64,000 nt of DNA. Origin: Fructobacillus parabroussonetiae (GTDB taxonomy: Bacteria; Bacillota; Bacilli; Lactobacillales; Lactobacillaceae). The first letter of the stretch is position 1. The number at the start of each line of letters is the position of its first letter. Position numbers and translations under genes: made by a program. The notes under the pieces are model-generated. The model saw nothing but the letters and a program-made list of their open reading frames with translations, did not search any database and was not told the origin of the DNA. Positions 45,491-51,652 of this stretch are shown piece by piece. The DNA is taken from positions 1 to 64,000 of the forward strand of contig NZ_JAAMFL010000008.1 of the NCBI RefSeq assembly GCF_018437265.1, written 5' to 3'.

Positions 45491-45519
45491 TTGTCAAAAA
45501 TTCATTTCCGTGTTTTAAT
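45491..45519 (+). promoter_or_regulatory. Promoter of the aromatic amino-acid operon
   Basis: -35 TTGTCA (45491-45496), 17-bp spacer and an extended -10, TG-T-TTTAAT, with the hexamer at 45514-45519. Transcription should start near 45526, giving a leader of about 275 bases before the first large gene. Confidence 0.78.
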
Positions 45520-45549
45520 AAAAACAACTTCAGGAAAGGAATTCCGAAC

Positions 45550-45609
45550 ATGAAATCAATCAACGTTACTATGATGAACCGTTATTACGGCTTTTATTAC
45601 TTTAGATAG
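45550..45609 (+). CDS. Aromatic-rich leader peptide of the aromatic operon
   Basis: An open frame of 19 codons plus TAG encodes MKSINVTMMNRYYGFYYFR. The last eight residues are Tyr-Tyr-Gly-Phe-Tyr-Tyr-Phe-Arg, so six of eight are the end products of the operon that follows. AGGA stands nine bases before the ATG within AGGAAAGGA. The stop codon touches the first of three perfect hairpins, and the third of these is a terminator. This is the classical arrangement of a ribosome-mediated attenuator, as in E. coli pheA. A chance open frame of this composition at exactly this place is unlikely. Confidence 0.85.
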   Translation: MKSINVTMMNRYYGFYYFR

Positions 45610-45780
45610 CACGTCCGGATTCGATGCGGACGTGCCGACACGTTCGCATCTAGGTAGTAAGAGTCATTTTTAACTTGGCTGACTAGGTGCACATCCTAGT
45701 CAGCGATTGATCAATTTGTTCTGGAATTTTTTTCCACACAATTCATGAGCCGACTAGGGTTTCCCTAGTCGGCCTTTTTT
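45609..45780 (+). promoter_or_regulatory. Attenuator region: three hairpins ending in a terminator
   Basis: Stem 1: GCACGTCCG (45609-45617) with CGGACGTGC (45627-45635), starting at the last base of the leader stop codon. The 3' arm can instead pair with CACGTTC (45639-45645). Stem 2: GCTGACTAGG (45678-45687) with CCTAGTCAGC (45695-45704). Stem 3: GCCGACTAGGG (45749-45759) with CCCTAGTCGGC (45763-45773), followed by C and six T: an intrinsic terminator. The 3' arm of stem 2 can pair with the 5' arm of stem 3 at 9 of 10 positions, so an antiterminator form exists. Confidence 0.82.
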
Positions 45781-45802
45781 ATTCAATAAAACAGGAGTTC
45801 TT

Positions 45803-47245
45803 ATGCAAATTAGCAACTTTCGTCTAAAATTCAGCCTTTTCCTGAACTACTTTGTTCACGGTTGTGGGCTGATCATTTTGACACAAAACCTGACACAACT
45901 TGCCAGTAACTGGCATTCAACACTAGCGACCGCTTCCTTTGTTCTTTCCGGTATTGGCATCGGCCGGCTAGCCGCTTACCTTTCCATGGGCTTCCTCTCC
46001 GACAAAGTCGGCCGTAAGAAAATTCTTCTCTTTGGGATGTTGTCTTACCTCATCTTCTTTATCGCCAGTCCAGTTAATGAGAGCATCCCAATCGCCTATG
46101 GTCTTTCGATTCTAGCCGGGATTGCCAATTCCGCCCTAGATTCAGCCGCTTACCCAATTCTTTCCGAGTTAAGGGGCAATCAAAAGGCCAACTCGGTTAG
46201 CTTAAAGGCCTTCATGTCTTCCGCGGAATTCATTCTTCCAGTCATTGTCCTAACGGCCAATCAAGAAAATTGGTGGTTCGGACTTTCCTTCCTATTGCCA
46301 GCCGTTATTTTAATGGCCAACCTCATCAATGTGACCTTTTTGACTTTCCCAAAGTCGGTAACTAAAGAGAATGAAAATATTCAAAAAGTTCAGCTGAACA
46401 CTGGTAAGAAAGTGCTCGTCACGGCCGCCTTACTCCTATACGGTTATACATCCATGGCCGTCATGATCTGGTTTACCCAGTGGATTTCCATTTTTGCAAA
46501 AAACATCGACTTTGGTAATACCACGGCCCACCTTCTCCTTTCACTCTACAGTCTTGGTTCGATTTCAGGGGTTTTGTTAACCTTAATTCTCCTTCGAATC
46601 AAGGCCGTTGCTAACCGCCTATTTCTTTTCCAAAACATCCTTTCCTTGCTCAGCCTCATCATCATTGCCTTCTCAACGCAAGAAAGTCTTTCCATGGTCG
46701 CCTGCTTCACCTTTGGCTTTTCCGCAGCAGCCGGCTTGATGCAAATGGCCCTGGCCACCCTCCTTCGACTTTACCCGAAGAAAAAGGGACTCTTAACTGG
46801 CCTCTTCTTTTCCTTTGGTTCGCTGGCCTCCTTTACCGTCCCACTCATCACTGGTTGGCTGGTGGCCCAAGGAAAGGCTAACCTGATGGTGGGCGACGTA
46901 ATTGTGGCCCTTATTGGACTAGCCGCCGCACTCATTATCCAAGCTTTCTTTCCAAAAGAAGCACCATCGTTAAAAGAAGCCCGGAAAGTGATTGATCGAA
47001 TCGATCATCAGCTGCTCCGCTTAGTCGAAAAACGTTTTCAAGCCGTCGATGCAGTCATTGCCCTTAAGCAAAAACAGGAACTACCGGTCTTGGATGCTTC
47101 AAGAGAGGAAAAAGTGCTCGAAAAGATTGCCAAAAACAGTCACAACAAAGCACTCATTTCATATAACCAAGCCATCTGGCAGACAATGATGGCACAGTCC
47201 AGAGCCTATCAAAGAGCCAAAGCACACCATAACAACAAAGAATAA
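45803..47245 (+). CDS. MFS transporter fused to AroQ chorismate mutase
   Basis: The 480-residue product combines two modules. Residues 1 to about 385 are a 12-helix major-facilitator transporter with motif A GFLSDKVGRKKILLFG after helix 2. Residues about 386-480 are an AroQ-type chorismate mutase, which turns chorismate into prephenate. By alignment to the E. coli P-protein domain, all catalytic residues are kept: R394, R411, K422, D431, R434, E435 and Q470 (equivalent to R11, R28, K39, D48, R51, E52, Q88). The mutase domain should face the cytoplasm. AGGAG stands five bases before the ATG. It is the first gene of the aromatic operon and directly follows the attenuator. No separate chorismate mutase is seen in the operon. 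The transported compound is unknown; an aromatic amino acid or precursor is likely. Confidence 0.9.
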   Translation: MQISNFRLKFSLFLNYFVHGCGLIILTQNLTQLASNWHSTLATASFVLSGIGIGRLAAYLSMGFLSDKVGRKKILLFGMLSYLIFFIASPVNESIPIAYGLSILAGIANSALDSAAYPILSELRGNQKANSVSLKAFMSSAEFILPVIVLTANQENWWFGLSFLLPAVILMANLINVTFLTFPKSVTKENENIQKVQLNTGKKVLVTAALLLYGYTSMAVMIWFTQWISIFAKNIDFGNTTAHLLLSLYSLGSISGVLLTLILLRIKAVANRLFLFQNILSLLSLIIIAFSTQESLSMVACFTFGFSAAAGLMQMALATLLRLYPKKKGLLTGLFFSFGSLASFTVPLITGWLVAQGKANLMVGDVIVALIGLAAALIIQAFFPKEAPSLKEARKVIDRIDHQLLRLVEKRFQAVDAVIALKQKQELPVLDASREEKVLEKIAKNSHNKALISYNQAIWQTMMAQSRAYQRAKAHHNNKE

Positions 47246-47262: not shown

Positions 47263-48432
47263 ATGATCAATTACTTAACTGCAGGTGAATCACACGGTCC
47301 CGAATTATCCGGCATTTTGACTGGCATCCCCGCTGGTCTTCACTTAGACATCGATGAAATCAACGCCGCACTAGCCGCCCGCCAGGGTGGTTACGGTCGT
47401 GGTAACCGTCAAAAAATTGAACACGACCAAGTCATCATCACCGGCGGTGTTCGACACGGCGTGACTTTGGGCTCACCGATTGCATTAACCGTTAAAAACC
47501 GCGACCATGCCCAGTGGTCAAAAATCATGGATCCGGTTACTCCAGCCAATGCCGAGAACACCTTACGAGCCGTCTCCCGCCCCCGGCCTGGTCATGCCGA
47601 CCTAGTCGGTGGGATGAAGTACGGCCACCGGGACATGCGAAACGTCTTGGAACGTTCATCAGCCCGTGAAACGGCCATGCAAGTAGCAGTTGGTAACATC
47701 TGCAAACAGGTCTTAGAAGCCCTGGGTGTTAAGATTGTCGGCCACGTTGAATCGATTGGTGGCATCGAAGCTGCCGGTAATCTTTCAACAGACGTGACTA
47801 CCATTGAAAAAAGTATCGAAGCCAACGACTTGCGCATTTTGGACCAAGGGAAGGTCGCTGAAATTCACCAGCGAATCGACCAGGCCAAGCGCGATGGTGA
47901 CACCCTTGGTGGGGTCATTCGCGTCGTTGCCGAAAACCTTCCCGCCGGCTTGGGTTCCTACACCTCCTGGGATACCAAGCTCGATGCCAAAGTCGCCGGC
48001 GCAGTCGTTGGTGTCAACGCCATGAAAGGCTGTGAAATTGGCGACGGCTTTGAAAACGCCGTCCGACCAGGATCGCAGGTCATGAACGAAATCGACTGGG
48101 AAAAAGGCAAGGGCTTCACCCGTAACTCCGACCACTTGGGCGGCTTTGAAGGTGGCATGACAAACGGCATGCCCGTCATCGTCAAAGCAGCCATGAAACC
48201 AATTCCAACCCTATACAAGCCCCCCCAATCGGCTGACATCAACTCAAAGGAAATCAGGAAGGCAACGGTGGAGCGATCGGATACGACCGCCATCGTCCCC
48301 GCTTCCATTGTCATCGAAGCCGTTGTCGCCATCGAATTGGCCAAGGCCATCTGTGAGACTTTCGACGGTTCCCAGATGGACCGGTTAAAAAAGCAAGTTG
48401 CCGATTACCGAAACGAGTTGCTGAACTTCTAA
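47263..48432 (+). CDS. aroC: Chorismate synthase
   Basis: Makes chorismate from 5-enolpyruvylshikimate-3-phosphate with reduced FMN. The 389-residue product shows the three family signatures: GESHGPELSGILTGIPAG, GGMKYGHRDMRNVLERSSAR (with the conserved HRD) and RSDTTAIVPASIV. AGAGG precedes the ATG. It follows the fused transporter-mutase gene after 17 bp. Confidence 0.97.
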   Translation: MINYLTAGESHGPELSGILTGIPAGLHLDIDEINAALAARQGGYGRGNRQKIEHDQVIITGGVRHGVTLGSPIALTVKNRDHAQWSKIMDPVTPANAENTLRAVSRPRPGHADLVGGMKYGHRDMRNVLERSSARETAMQVAVGNICKQVLEALGVKIVGHVESIGGIEAAGNLSTDVTTIEKSIEANDLRILDQGKVAEIHQRIDQAKRDGDTLGGVIRVVAENLPAGLGSYTSWDTKLDAKVAGAVVGVNAMKGCEIGDGFENAVRPGSQVMNEIDWEKGKGFTRNSDHLGGFEGGMTNGMPVIVKAAMKPIPTLYKPPQSADINSKEIRKATVERSDTTAIVPASIVIEAVVAIELAKAICETFDGSQMDRLKKQVADYRNELLNF

Positions 48433-48441
48433 GGAGTACTT

Positions 48442-49713
48442 ATGACAATTCCGACTTTACAAGGAACCATTCAGGTTCCTGGTGATAAATCCATCTCCCA
48501 CCGAGCCATTATCTTCGGTGCGATTGCAGAAGGCAAGACGACCGTTTCGAACTTTCTTCGTTCAAACGACTGTCTGGCCACCCTTCAGGCCTTTCGTCAG
48601 ATGGGCGTCCACATTGAAGAAGAGGGCAAGCACCTGATCATCGACGGTGTCGGTATGCAGGGCTTAAAAGAAAGCCAAGAGCCGCTAAACATGCAAAACT
48701 CTGGGACATCCACCCGCTTGCTAGCCGGGCTCTTGGCCGGCCAGCTCTTCGACAGTCAACTATTGGGCGATGCCTCCTTGTCAAAGCGCCCGATGGGCCG
48801 TGTCATCACGCCACTTTCTCAAATGAACGGCAGGATGATGGCCACAGACGGCCACTTGCCAATGGTAATCAATGGCGAGGTTCTCCATGGCATCCACTAC
48901 CGCCTGCCAATCGCCTCGGCTCAGGTCAAGTCGGCCATCATTTTGGCAGCCCTGACCGCACAGTCGGACACGACAATTGAAGAACCCCTGCCCTCCCGCG
49001 ACCACAGCGAAAAGATGCTCAAGCTCTTCTCTCCTGAGTCCATCGATAAGAAGAACCATTTGATTACCATTCATCCCGGTCACCCACTCACTGGTCAGCA
49101 AATCGAAGTCCCCGCCGACATTTCCTCGGCCGCCTTCTTCCTGGTCGCTGCTGCCATTGTGCCGGGTTCTGAGGTCACCATCGAACGCGTTGGTCTCAAC
49201 CCAACCCGTGACGGCATCATTCGTGTCTTGCAAGAAATGGGGGCTGATTTAACAATCGAAGGCATCGACCAGCCTGGCGAACCCATGGCCAACTTAACCG
49301 TCAAAGCTGGGCCTCTCAAGCCTTTTCATATAAAAGAAGCAGACATCCCCGCCCTCGTTGATGAAATTCCGGTATTAGCCCTTCTAGCAACGGCGGCTGA
49401 CGGGGTTTCTACCATCTCTGGTGCACAAGAGCTTCGAGTTAAGGAATCGGACCGTCTGACCGCCATCCGCTCGGAATTAGGAAAGCTCGGCGCTGCCATC
49501 GAAGAAAAACCGGATGGCCTGATTATCACCGGTGGCCGACCATTGCAAGTTCAAAACGCAGCACTCGACTCCTTTGGTGATCACCGGATTGCCATGACCT
49601 TACAAGTCGCTTCCCTGCTGGTTGACCAAACCGTCACCATCAAAGATGCCGACTGCATGGCTGTCTCCTACCCGACTTTTACAAGCGATTTGCACACACT
49701 CATAAAGGAATAA
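48442..49713 (+). CDS. aroA: 3-phosphoshikimate 1-carboxyvinyltransferase (EPSP synthase)
   Basis: Joins shikimate-3-phosphate and phosphoenolpyruvate. The 423-residue product has the first family motif around PGDKSISHRA, the NSGTSTRLLAGLLAG motif and RVKESDRLTAI near residue 335. GGAG precedes the ATG, 9 bp after aroC. Length and motifs are normal. Confidence 0.97.
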   Translation: MTIPTLQGTIQVPGDKSISHRAIIFGAIAEGKTTVSNFLRSNDCLATLQAFRQMGVHIEEEGKHLIIDGVGMQGLKESQEPLNMQNSGTSTRLLAGLLAGQLFDSQLLGDASLSKRPMGRVITPLSQMNGRMMATDGHLPMVINGEVLHGIHYRLPIASAQVKSAIILAALTAQSDTTIEEPLPSRDHSEKMLKLFSPESIDKKNHLITIHPGHPLTGQQIEVPADISSAAFFLVAAAIVPGSEVTIERVGLNPTRDGIIRVLQEMGADLTIEGIDQPGEPMANLTVKAGPLKPFHIKEADIPALVDEIPVLALLATAADGVSTISGAQELRVKESDRLTAIRSELGKLGAAIEEKPDGLIITGGRPLQVQNAALDSFGDHRIAMTLQVASLLVDQTVTIKDADCMAVSYPTFTSDLHTLIKE

Positions 49714-49716
49714 CTC

Positions 49717-50571
49717 ATGACCACTGTCTTTATCGACGGGCTGGGGCTGATTGGCGCTAGCCTGGCAACTTTCATCAAGAAAAACCATCCAACGACACGC
49801 ATCATCGCCAACGATTTGAATCCCGAAAACTTGCTTTATATGAAAGAGCAGGGCGTATTGGATGCTGCCAGTTCCTTTGAAGACGGTGCGAAAAACGCGG
49901 ACATCATCCTCTTGGCTTCACCCGTCGCGGCCATCTGCCTGCGGCTAAAAGAACTGGCCGACCTTTCCTTAAAAGACAACGTGCTCGTCTCAGACGTCGG
50001 TTCGTCCAAAGTCCAAATCGAAGAAAGCGCCCAGGCCCTAATGGCAAAGGGCGTCGCCTTTTTGGCCGGTCACCCGATGGCCGGCTCGCACTTAACCGGC
50101 GCCAAAAACGTGGATACAAAACGATTGGTCAACCACACCTACTTCTTAATTCAAGAAAACAGCAGTCAAGAACAGCTGAGCAGCTTTCAAAATCTGCTGT
50201 CAGCGGCTAACTTTGACTTTCGCCTTGTGGATGCGGCCAGTCACGATCAAATCGTCGCCGCCTCCTCTCATTTGCCACACATGGTCGCCTTTGCGCTCGC
50301 TTCCACGGTTAACAAGGCCCGCGAAGCCTCAGCTGTTGACTGGGGCAAGCCGGCCGCCGGTTTTCTCGATGCCACCCGAATCGCCAAAGCCGACGCCACG
50401 ATGTGGACCAGCGTCTTCTTGTCCAACCCCCAACAGATCTTAGCCTCGCTCGACGACTTTGAAAAGGAAATTGGCCGGTTAAAGCAGGCCATTGCGGATC
50501 AAAACGCCGATGCATTATTCAAGGATTTAACGACGGCTCAGGCAGCCCGCCGCCAAATGGAAAAGGAGTAA
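49717..50571 (+). CDS. tyrA: Prephenate dehydrogenase, without ACT domain
   Basis: Converts prephenate to 4-hydroxyphenylpyruvate with NAD, the tyrosine branch. The 284-residue product has the Rossmann motif GLGLIGASLA, DVGSSK and the active-site HPMAGS motif with LTGAKNVD. It ends after the catalytic domain; the C-terminal ACT regulatory domain of Bacillus-type TyrA (about 370 residues) is missing, so tyrosine feedback through that domain is not expected. It starts 3 bp after aroA. Confidence 0.93.
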   Translation: MTTVFIDGLGLIGASLATFIKKNHPTTRIIANDLNPENLLYMKEQGVLDAASSFEDGAKNADIILLASPVAAICLRLKELADLSLKDNVLVSDVGSSKVQIEESAQALMAKGVAFLAGHPMAGSHLTGAKNVDTKRLVNHTYFLIQENSSQEQLSSFQNLLSAANFDFRLVDAASHDQIVAASSHLPHMVAFALASTVNKAREASAVDWGKPAAGFLDATRIAKADATMWTSVFLSNPQQILASLDDFEKEIGRLKQAIADQNADALFKDLTTAQAARRQMEKE

Positions 50572-50574
50572 CAG

Positions 50575-51087
50575 ATGAAAAATCCAATACTGATTGGCTT
50601 CATGGGCGCCGGAAAGACAACCGTCGGCACCACCCTTGCCAAAGTCTTAGGGCAACCCTTCTATGACCTAGACGATGCCATCGAAAAACACTTGGGTCAA
50701 AGCATCCCTTCTTACTTCAACGAAAAGGGGGAAAGCGCCTTTCGACAAGTGGAAAAGGAGTTGTTAGCCCGGCACTTATCCACGGATAATGTCTTAGCAA
50801 CTGGCGGGGGCACGGCCTGCCAAGTGGTCAATCAAGCACTCTTGCGGGCAGACAAGCGTCCGGTCGTTTGGCTACAGGCCTCTGACAAAACCACGCTAGA
50901 AAACCTCTCAGCCGAAGATTGGCAAAAACGCCCCATCCTAGCTGATAAGACAGCCGAAGACCTAAGCAAACTCAAGGCTTCCCGGGAAGTCTTCTACCGA
51001 AAAACCGCTGATATCATCGTCAACGTCGACCAAAAGACACCCGAAACCATCGCAGAAGAGATTATCGACCGTCTTCAAAACGCTTGA
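50575..51087 (+). CDS. aroK: Shikimate kinase
   Basis: Phosphorylates shikimate with ATP, two steps before chorismate. The 170-residue product has the P-loop GFMGAGKTTVGT, FYDLDDAIEKHLGQSIP with the shikimate-binding Asp, the ATGGGTA motif and a lid Arg region (WQKRPIL). It follows tyrA after 3 bp. Confidence 0.95.
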   Translation: MKNPILIGFMGAGKTTVGTTLAKVLGQPFYDLDDAIEKHLGQSIPSYFNEKGESAFRQVEKELLARHLSTDNVLATGGGTACQVVNQALLRADKRPVVWLQASDKTTLENLSAEDWQKRPILADKTAEDLSKLKASREVFYRKTADIIVNVDQKTPETIAEEIIDRLQNA

Positions 51088-51106: not shown

Positions 51107-51652
51107 ATGGCCATACTCCACACACTGGGTCCAGCTGAAACCGATGCCAATTTAGTTGCTAACCATCTAAAGGATGAAGACCCCCACTATCAGAACGTAA
51201 CCATTCAGCTACACCCTGATTTTGCTTCGATTTATGCGCAGCTAACGCAGTACCGAGGTGACTACTTTCTGGTGCCGGTTGGCTATCAAGGACCTGCTGG
51301 TGACAGCTGGACCAGCCAGCACTACGCCCATTGGCAAGAACTAACCATTCAAAAGACCTGGGCGGCACCGACCATGGAAATGCTTTTAGTTGAAAACACC
51401 GAACAAAAAAATGGCAAAGCCGTCAGCCACAAAACAACCACGGCCCTTCTTCAAGACTTTGCCAAACAAGAACAGCGCAGCCTGACGATCGACTATGTCC
51501 CCGCCAAGCCACTGGCTGCTGATGCTTTTTTAAAAGGGCTGCACCAATACGCCATCTTCAGTCAAAACGCCGAACAAAAACTGCAGGCAAAACATCAAAT
51601 CATTGCCCGTTTCCAACCAGAAATGATTTGGTGCCTCTATCAAATCAAATAA
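51107..51652 (+). CDS. BacA/prephenate-dehydratase-like protein without ACT domain
   Basis: 181-residue soluble protein, last gene of the aromatic operon. The head (ILHTLGPAETDANLVANHL) fits the GP.GT-type opening of prephenate dehydratases and of BacA, the prephenate decarboxylase of bacilysin synthesis. The tail (IIARFQPEMIWCLYQIK) lines up with the BacA end and places ARF where dehydratases have the catalytic TRF, so the Thr is lost. At about 180 residues it is the size of BacA, not of PheA (about 280 with ACT). By context it should act on prephenate; whether it gives phenylpyruvate or a dihydro compound cannot be told. Confidence 0.75.
   Translation: MAILHTLGPAETDANLVANHLKDEDPHYQNVTIQLHPDFASIYAQLTQYRGDYFLVPVGYQGPAGDSWTSQHYAHWQELTIQKTWAAPTMEMLLVENTEQKNGKAVSHKTTTALLQDFAKQEQRSLTIDYVPAKPLAADAFLKGLHQYAIFSQNAEQKLQAKHQIIARFQPEMIWCLYQIK

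Follow-up and report, generated by a model that had tools for sequence, protein, structure and literature searches.

A predicted Tyr/Phe leader-peptide attenuator before an aromatic operon of Fructobacillus, and its putative codon-box exchange across Lactobacillales

The aromatic operon of Fructobacillus parabroussonetiae is preceded by a leader that combines a short open reading frame (ORF) rich in Tyr and Phe codons with mutually exclusive stems, which raises the question of whether transcription into the operon is governed by a ribosome that reads the supply of these amino acids. The enterobacterial trp, phe and his leaders carry codons for the end product, mutually exclusive stems and an intrinsic terminator, and display superattenuation. 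Firmicutes are known for T-boxes and TRAP, and aromatic regulation in low-GC Gram-positives was reportedly treated by Panina et al. in 2003. The DNA analysed, referred to here as the window, comprises positions 1-64,000 of the forward strand of contig NZ_JAAMFL010000008.1 (assembly GCF_018437265.1), and the 1.2-Mb draft genome holds one copy of the leader. On the evidence of its sequence, the leader is very probably an attenuator of transcription in which a ribosome reads how well the tRNAs for Tyr and Phe are charged.

All features of the locus lie on the + strand. The promoter (45491-45519), read directly, consists of a -35 element TTGTCA (45491-45496), a 17-nt spacer and an extended -10 element TGTTTTAAT (45511-45519). 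It is missing from the list of a simple sigma-70 scan because its -10 lacks an A at position 2; TGTTTTAAT is present in the 80 nt before the ORF in 95 of the 124 distinct leaders described below, against a shuffled mean of 0.26. The ribosome-binding site AAAGGA (45535-45540), with comparable sites in relatives, precedes a 19-codon ORF, MKSINVTMMNRYYGFYYFR (45550-45609), whose six Tyr/Phe codons (Tyr12, Tyr13, Phe15, Tyr16, Tyr17 and Phe18) cluster towards its end. Stem 1 opens on the G of the stop codon with arm 1, GCACGTCCG (45609-45617), and its 3' strand, CGGACGTGC (45627-45635), lies within arm 2 (45623-45635). Stem 2, of ten perfect base pairs, joins arm 4 (45678-45687) to arm 5 (45695-45704). 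The intrinsic terminator is a perfect 11-bp stem of arm 6 (45749-45759) and arm 7 (45763-45773), followed by a C and a run of six T (45775-45780). Direct reading thus bears out the promoter, ORF, ribosome-binding site, stop-codon stem, second stem and terminator of the original prediction. The leader folds at -107.3 kcal/mol, compared with -60.3 (sd 4.9) in 200 shuffles (z -9.7).

Downstream, the first gene (45803-47245) encodes an MFS transporter fused to a chorismate mutase (Pfam MFS_1 and CM_2, above cut-offs), for which the closest named MFS-mutase is that of F. papyriferae (72%). It is followed by aroC, aroA, tyrA and aroK (47263-51087; Pfam), and the aromatic operon is closed by an orphan gene for a 181-aa protein (51107-51652). 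The locus holds the sequence features of an attenuator of this type, namely pathway codons in a putative leader ORF, exclusive stems, an intrinsic terminator and genes of the cognate pathway downstream. The MFS and mutase genes can also stand apart, as in one locus (L083) where each has its own leader.

T-boxes commonly regulate amino acid genes of Firmicutes (PMC2494555, in part), which would favour a T-box or another tRNA-binding riboswitch here, as would the 16 T-box matches elsewhere in this genome, three of them over the family cut-off. At the locus itself Rfam gives no T-box match at either gathering or permissive thresholds, in agreement with the earlier statement that no such sequence is visible there, and the conserved feature is an ORF, which makes this explanation exceedingly improbable. 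For Rfam families in general, the window contains no over-threshold matches and its permissive matches are weak.

The conservation of the leader was examined through successive models. When named genomes were scanned, 25 MFS-mutase loci were recovered, 13 of which have an ORF and a terminator directly upstream of the gene. These 13 leaders and the window form the alignment of model R2, which recovers the leader in 11 of the remaining 12 loci, where in most cases it heads a longer aro operon; L018, on a short contig, is the only one of the 25 without a leader. An earlier model, R1, was discarded after its automatic consensus structure missed helices A:B and 4:5. R2 matches 135 of 397 Lactobacillaceae genomes in 23 of 40 genera, a subset of these matches having been read, and 12 of the 13 genomes of the window's genus, its own included (G228 has no match). 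Fetched loci gave 135 rows, reduced to the 124 distinct Lactobacillaceae leaders, in which ORFs were picked by start codon and ribosome-binding site irrespective of residues. Alignment A2, of 92 leaders, is the basis of model R3, which matches 176 of 395 Lactobacillales genomes (48 of 81 genera); on genomes of the class it matches 28 of 398, three of them outside the order. Since both models contain the ORF, their matches favour similar ORFs, and since the sequences are related, the counts are not independent events. The leader is confined neither to MFS-mutase genes nor to Leuconostocaceae, for which its comparison had first been proposed. One match outside Lactobacillales (L200) is a Tyr/Phe/Trp leader before what looks by eye like a transketolase-like gene, which would supply erythrose 4-phosphate.

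The original prediction depended on homologous leaders keeping a Tyr/Phe-rich peptide, and an aromatic-rich ORF is kept in the 124 distinct leaders. Over their last ten codons, the aromatic share averages 5.65 in frame, compared with 0.47 and 1.12 in the other two frames, and at least five of the ten codons are aromatic in 107 leaders in frame and in none in either other frame. The peptides end in a run of the type YYxGFAYFR, with Gly at -6 in 62 and Ala at -4 in 67 of the 124. This invites the reading of an arrest peptide, in which a Y/F-rich nascent chain would stall the ribosome by its sequence or by binding the free amino acid, with charging unread; TnaC is the precedent for nascent-chain arrest. 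The last nine residues, including Gly -6 and Ala -4, are indeed more conserved than a charging sensor needs. Against such an arrest, Tyr, Phe and Trp interchange at -3, -7 and -9 across the 124 leaders, the conserved Gly and Ala codons fall in segment A, where base pairs of the RNA change on both sides, and the box shifts to Ile/Leu/Val or to Phe only in step with the gene downstream (below). An arrest peptide is accordingly improbable, although it is the least improbable of the rivals considered.

The RNA downstream of the ORF forms a complete chain of alternative stems, 1:2, 2:3, 3:4, 4:5, 5:6 and 6:7. The alternative partner for the 3' arm of stem 1 that had been noticed just downstream is arm 3 (45639-45650), which pairs with arm 2 over 12 bp with one G-U, and arm 5 fits arm 6 at nine of ten positions, as claimed. 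In addition, the Phe-Tyr-Tyr-Phe codons themselves form segment A (45591-45605), which pairs in the minimum-free-energy fold with segment B (45650-45663), a segment that overlaps the end of arm 3'; this helix on the Tyr/Phe codons goes beyond the earlier reading. Over the 92 leaders of A2, 2:3 is paired in 96.9% of cells, 4:5 in 88.8% and A:B in 79-91% depending on the helix, and all three show two-sided changes. These figures lean towards the model, because the pairs were part of it. Arm 3 carries the motif CGTTY in 91 of 124 leaders, short of all of them.

The connection between stem 1 and stem 2, which the original prediction had left open, was found as helix 3:4, in which arm 3', GCATCTAG (45646-45653), pairs with arm 4', CTAGGTGC (45683-45690). 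The model by which the leaders were aligned does not contain this helix. The window's register of 1:2 misfits most relatives (51.8% paired), and for this reason 3:4 was recounted alone and stem 1 was judged by length. Over seven pairs and 92 leaders, 3:4 is paired in 93.4% of cells, compared with 84.9% in shuffled alignments (0 of 500 as high), and partners slid along the sequence reach at most 58%. Two-sided changes occur at three pairs, in 34, 30 and 15 sequences, and the variants GCAUC, GUGUC, GCGUC and GCACC each come with their own partner. The covariation score of 0.434 is reached by 0 of 500 shuffles, which give 0.277; measures of pair count and pair type do not go beyond the shuffles (126 and 157 of 500). 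In 87 later places, taken from among the best-scoring matches listed, 82 heptamers could be anchored and five could not, and of the 82, 49 pair over at least 6 bp, compared with 10 when tails are shuffled. A helix B:4 was also considered as a direct link between A:B and stem 2; it is visible in some leaders when own and swapped energies are compared, and 3:4 was retained as the general link.

The remaining elements are similarly widespread. A stem of at least 8 bp whose start lies 0-4 nt past the first base of the stop codon is present in 104 of 124 leaders and in 5.7% of shuffles; with the minimum lowered to 6 bp, the figures are 115 of 124 and 34%, respectively. A count of stem length untied from the stop codon (123 of 124 at 6 bp or more) was set aside, as the best stem starts within those 0-4 nt in only 90 of 124. 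A terminator follows 16-67 nt beyond arm 5 in 92 of 92 leaders by a plain rule that is permissive, 26 of 40 shuffled tails passing it as well; at -13 kcal/mol or better, a terminator is found in 90 of 92 leaders compared with five of 40 shuffled tails. A terminator rule, here without a shuffle control, is also passed at 84 of the 87 later places from among the best-scoring matches listed.

The behaviour of the chain was followed by masked folding, in which the window RNA up to arm 7 is folded after removal of the part covered by a ribosome. Within the chain, helices 2:3, 4:5 and 6:7 terminate, and 1:2, 3:4 and 5:6 read through. When the A site holds Tyr12, Tyr13, Phe15 or Tyr16, P(3:4) reaches 0.99-1.00 and P(5:6) 0.87; P(5:6) falls to 0.16 at Tyr17, 0.01 at Phe18 and 0.08 at the stop codon, and to 0.00 without a ribosome, when A:B forms. 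With ribosome edges of 9 to 15 nt, P(5:6) keeps within 0.75-0.90 for Tyr12-Tyr16 and does not exceed 0.10 for the stop codon, while an edge of 17 nt speaks against the switch, the stop state then reading through as well (0.86). Read-through in the window is also obtained with the neighbouring codons Arg11 (0.85) and Gly14 (0.90) in the A site at edge 13; specificity for Tyr and Phe must accordingly come from the choice of codons and not just from the fold. Over 91 leaders, the second aromatic codon in the A site, compared with the stop codon, gives a mean P(1:2) of 0.53 versus 0.00 and a mean P(3:4) of 0.52 versus 0.09; the last step is weak, with a mean P(5:6) of 0.61 versus 0.50. For the first aromatic codon, P(5:6) exceeds that at the stop codon by more than 0.1 in 25 of the 91 leaders and is lower in 15. 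In these folding models, the early part of the switch holds across the 91 leaders and the antiterminator step is mixed outside the window. Before arm 6 is synthesised, equilibrium favours 4:5 even under a stalled ribosome, and the switch would therefore need a co-transcriptional order of folding.

The ORF, the alternative stems, the terminator and the aromatic operon are read in the sequence itself; from these we infer the following order of events. When the aminoacyl-tRNAs are scarce, the ribosome would halt on Tyr12-Tyr16 and cover segment A while leaving 1:2 free; A:B would be blocked because A is covered. Arm 3' could then take arm 4', arm 5 would be left for arm 6, and with the terminator blocked, transcription would read through. 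With enough Tyr and Phe, the ribosome would reach the last codons and the stop codon and cover arm 1, whereupon 2:3, 4:5 and 6:7 would form and transcription would terminate. In an untranslated leader, or once the ribosome has departed, A:B would prevail over 1:2 and block arm 3', again leading to termination, a form of superattenuation. The Tyr/Phe attenuator reading of the original prediction is thus supported by the conserved aromatic ORF, the covarying alternative stems and the masked folding of the window.

If the codons set the specificity, their identity may be expected to follow the genes downstream. The 87 later places were chosen for genus spread from the best-scoring matches listed; five are in Lactobacillaceae, and many are similar sequences of a single genus (g43). 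Automatic labelling of their codon boxes gave 69 aromatic, 15 aliphatic and three other; the frames of L218, L221, L258 and L265 were re-read by hand, and L261 (a Phe box) and L170 (a broken frame) were relabelled by hand. After correction, 73 boxes among these best-scoring listed places are aromatic, L170 included, and 14 are of the Ile/Leu/Val type. In L170 the aromatic frame is broken near its start, which counts against the attenuator reading. Aliphatic boxes stand before branched-chain genes in 14 of 14 of these listed places and aromatic boxes in 0 of the 72 with a gene call, one aromatic box (L223) being without a call.

Of those 72, 50 precede a single group of genes, whose examined members are ABC_sub_bind or TrpX-like binding proteins, and a further five precede a group that looks by eye like binding proteins; the others are aroE (eight), a CitMHS-like transporter (three) and six singles, for example a DAHP synthase. 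The 14 aliphatic boxes of the listed places are followed by LivJ-like binding proteins (seven), ilvE (three), ilvA (two) and ilvB (two). These groups were formed by BLAST, one member of each of seven groups and two singles being named by Pfam and one member of each of five groups by NCBIfam. In the latter, scores for ilvE, ilvA and ilvB exceed the cut-off, whereas those for TrpX (324 of 390 bits) and for LivJ (166 of 477) fall short of it. In one genome (G606), an Ile and a Tyr/Phe leader are up to 77% alike in the scaffold and 54% in the ORF part, and other within-genome pairs are less alike, down to 63% and 65%, all of these being raw values without a baseline. Two tandem leaders in one locus (L267:312-1812) each precede their own binding protein of the TrpX-like group. 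Thirteen Tyr-rich leaders (L031, L040 and L057 among them) were also seen before an NhaC-type antiporter group, of which Pfam named one member; this suggests that this group is an aromatic amino acid carrier.

Taken together with the Phe-only boxes described below, we infer a single scaffold whose codon box has been exchanged across Lactobacillales between Tyr/Phe, Phe only and Ile/Leu/Val; the Ile/Leu/Val scaffolds before branched-chain genes were not part of the earlier reading. It appears rather likely that this portable scaffold is older than the families of Lactobacillales, and that it has spread over amino acid genes and been retuned through its codon box to Tyr/Phe, Phe, Ile/Leu/Val and perhaps, via the trpB motif, Trp. 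Protein-mediated attenuation, by TRAP or an antiterminator protein for instance, is known for the trp genes of Bacillus (PMC4027176, in part), but would leave both the in-frame codon box and its exchange unexplained and is very improbable here.

Relatives of the leader may already be filed under other names. A small-molecule riboswitch or a trans-acting small RNA is conceivable, given that Rfam lists the Enterococcus version as sRNA_2410 (RF02863), an E. faecium RNA of 195 nt by RNA-seq with two transcripts on Northern blots (PMC5593968, in part), and that the trpB motif (RF04312) is listed as a strong riboswitch candidate, its authors keeping a classic attenuator possible (PMC11109978, in part). 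The window is unmatched by RF02863 (gathering score 61 bits). Where the family overlaps the leader before aroE, three places exceed its threshold (L166, L168 and L187) and three fall short (L167, L194 and L195). Its consensus starts on the last codons of the ORF and holds A:B and 1:2; the overlap and this start argue against a riboswitch or a trans-acting small RNA. In the accessible part of its description the RNA is filed as a small RNA, with no ORF, terminator switch, aroE or function named (PMC5593968). For RF04312, with its gathering score of 59, the window reaches 29.3 bits; the motif is thus below its family threshold here and is a distinct covariance model, which shares the layout of a leader with a terminator. 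All 23 places over the cut-off in 98 genomes and three below it were read, and in 26 of 26 (L202-L207 and L228-L247, L239 by hand) a short ORF ending with one or two Trp codons, e.g. ..TWQNWRR, lies just upstream of the motif. These observations suggest that sRNA_2410 and the trpB motif are leader-peptide attenuators, and a riboswitch or small RNA is improbable for the leader, ranking just behind the arrest peptide. Downstream of the motif in L202 lies what looks by eye like a group II intron with a reverse transcriptase.

The codon box also bears on the orphan gene that closes the operon. All four leaders that stand before this gene have Phe and lack Tyr in their last nine residues, and none of the other 120 leaders lacks Tyr there (Fisher 1e-7, a value that overstates the case because the four fall in two genera). 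Phe-only boxes in this position predict an enzyme of the Phe branch. The 181-aa protein has no Pfam or NCBIfam family over the cut-off, and a PDB profile search found nothing. Its structure model (pLDDT 93.4) has prephenate dehydratases as its best Foldseek matches (E 5.6e-9, TM-scores 0.54-0.60), and the first three structural Z values, of 10.9, 10.4 and 10.3, are also prephenate dehydratases. Other two-lobed binding folds follow at Z 9.9 and below, and so the fold alone is no proof. Box and model together make it probable that the orphan encodes a prephenate dehydratase that lacks an ACT domain.

The principle of attenuation is already known, and the apparently new part, as far as the papers searched go, is the Tyr/Phe class and the putative exchange of boxes. 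The his leader of enterobacteria likewise has a long chain of alternating stems. Compared by description with enterobacterial leaders, the leader described here has its stop codon on stem 1, seven arms plus A:B, and one scaffold for several amino acids. Among Firmicutes, leader-peptide attenuation of branched-chain genes has been shown with mutants for Rli60 of Listeria (PMC5864092, in part) and, with a Leu leader, for ilv of S. aureus (PMC5794164, in part), the latter paper also citing predicted branched-chain leaders in Lactococcus lactis and Streptococcus; the accessible parts of both describe branched-chain genes and no Tyr/Phe box. The uORFC-13-1 motif, from Acholeplasma and environmental sequences only, has a short ORF with at least one Phe codon and a terminator stem and is likened by its authors to E. 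coli aroF (PMC8632094, in part); that part describes no chain of stems, and the motif is set apart from the present leader by description only. Predicted His leader peptides replace T-boxes in bacilli and clostridia (PMC2965389 and PMC9413887, in part) and, unlike the Tyr/Phe scaffold with its several boxes, are described in those parts for His only. They are reported from the Bacillus cereus group, Eubacteriales and Erysipelotrichales, with T-boxes given for Lactobacillales (PMC9413887, in part), and trpX of S. suis is under T-box control (PMC9382623, in part). In the searched literature, made up mostly of papers outside subscription and consulted in part, no account of a Tyr/Phe class or of codon-box exchange on one scaffold was found. 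In the text of a pneumococcal genome annotation with 29 RNA switches, neither 'leader peptide' nor 'aromatic' occurs by term search (PMC6212727).

RNA polymerase of Bacillus subtilis reportedly runs ahead of the leading ribosome (PMC9226507, in part), and ribosome-read attenuators should therefore be hard to run in such bacteria. A class that extends through Lactobacillales allows a direct test of whether transcription and translation are coupled there, or whether time is bought by pausing and by the 16-67 nt that separate arm 5 from the terminator. A scaffold on which codon boxes have been exchanged would amount to a natural experiment on the evolution of attenuators. The codons can also serve as annotation, in that they link to Tyr and Phe the orphan enzyme, TrpX-like binding proteins and permeases of the NhaC and amino acid types. 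If the portable scaffold is true, it would be the ribosome-read counterpart of the specifier codon of the T-box, and the codons of a leader would predict the cargo of unknown transporters.
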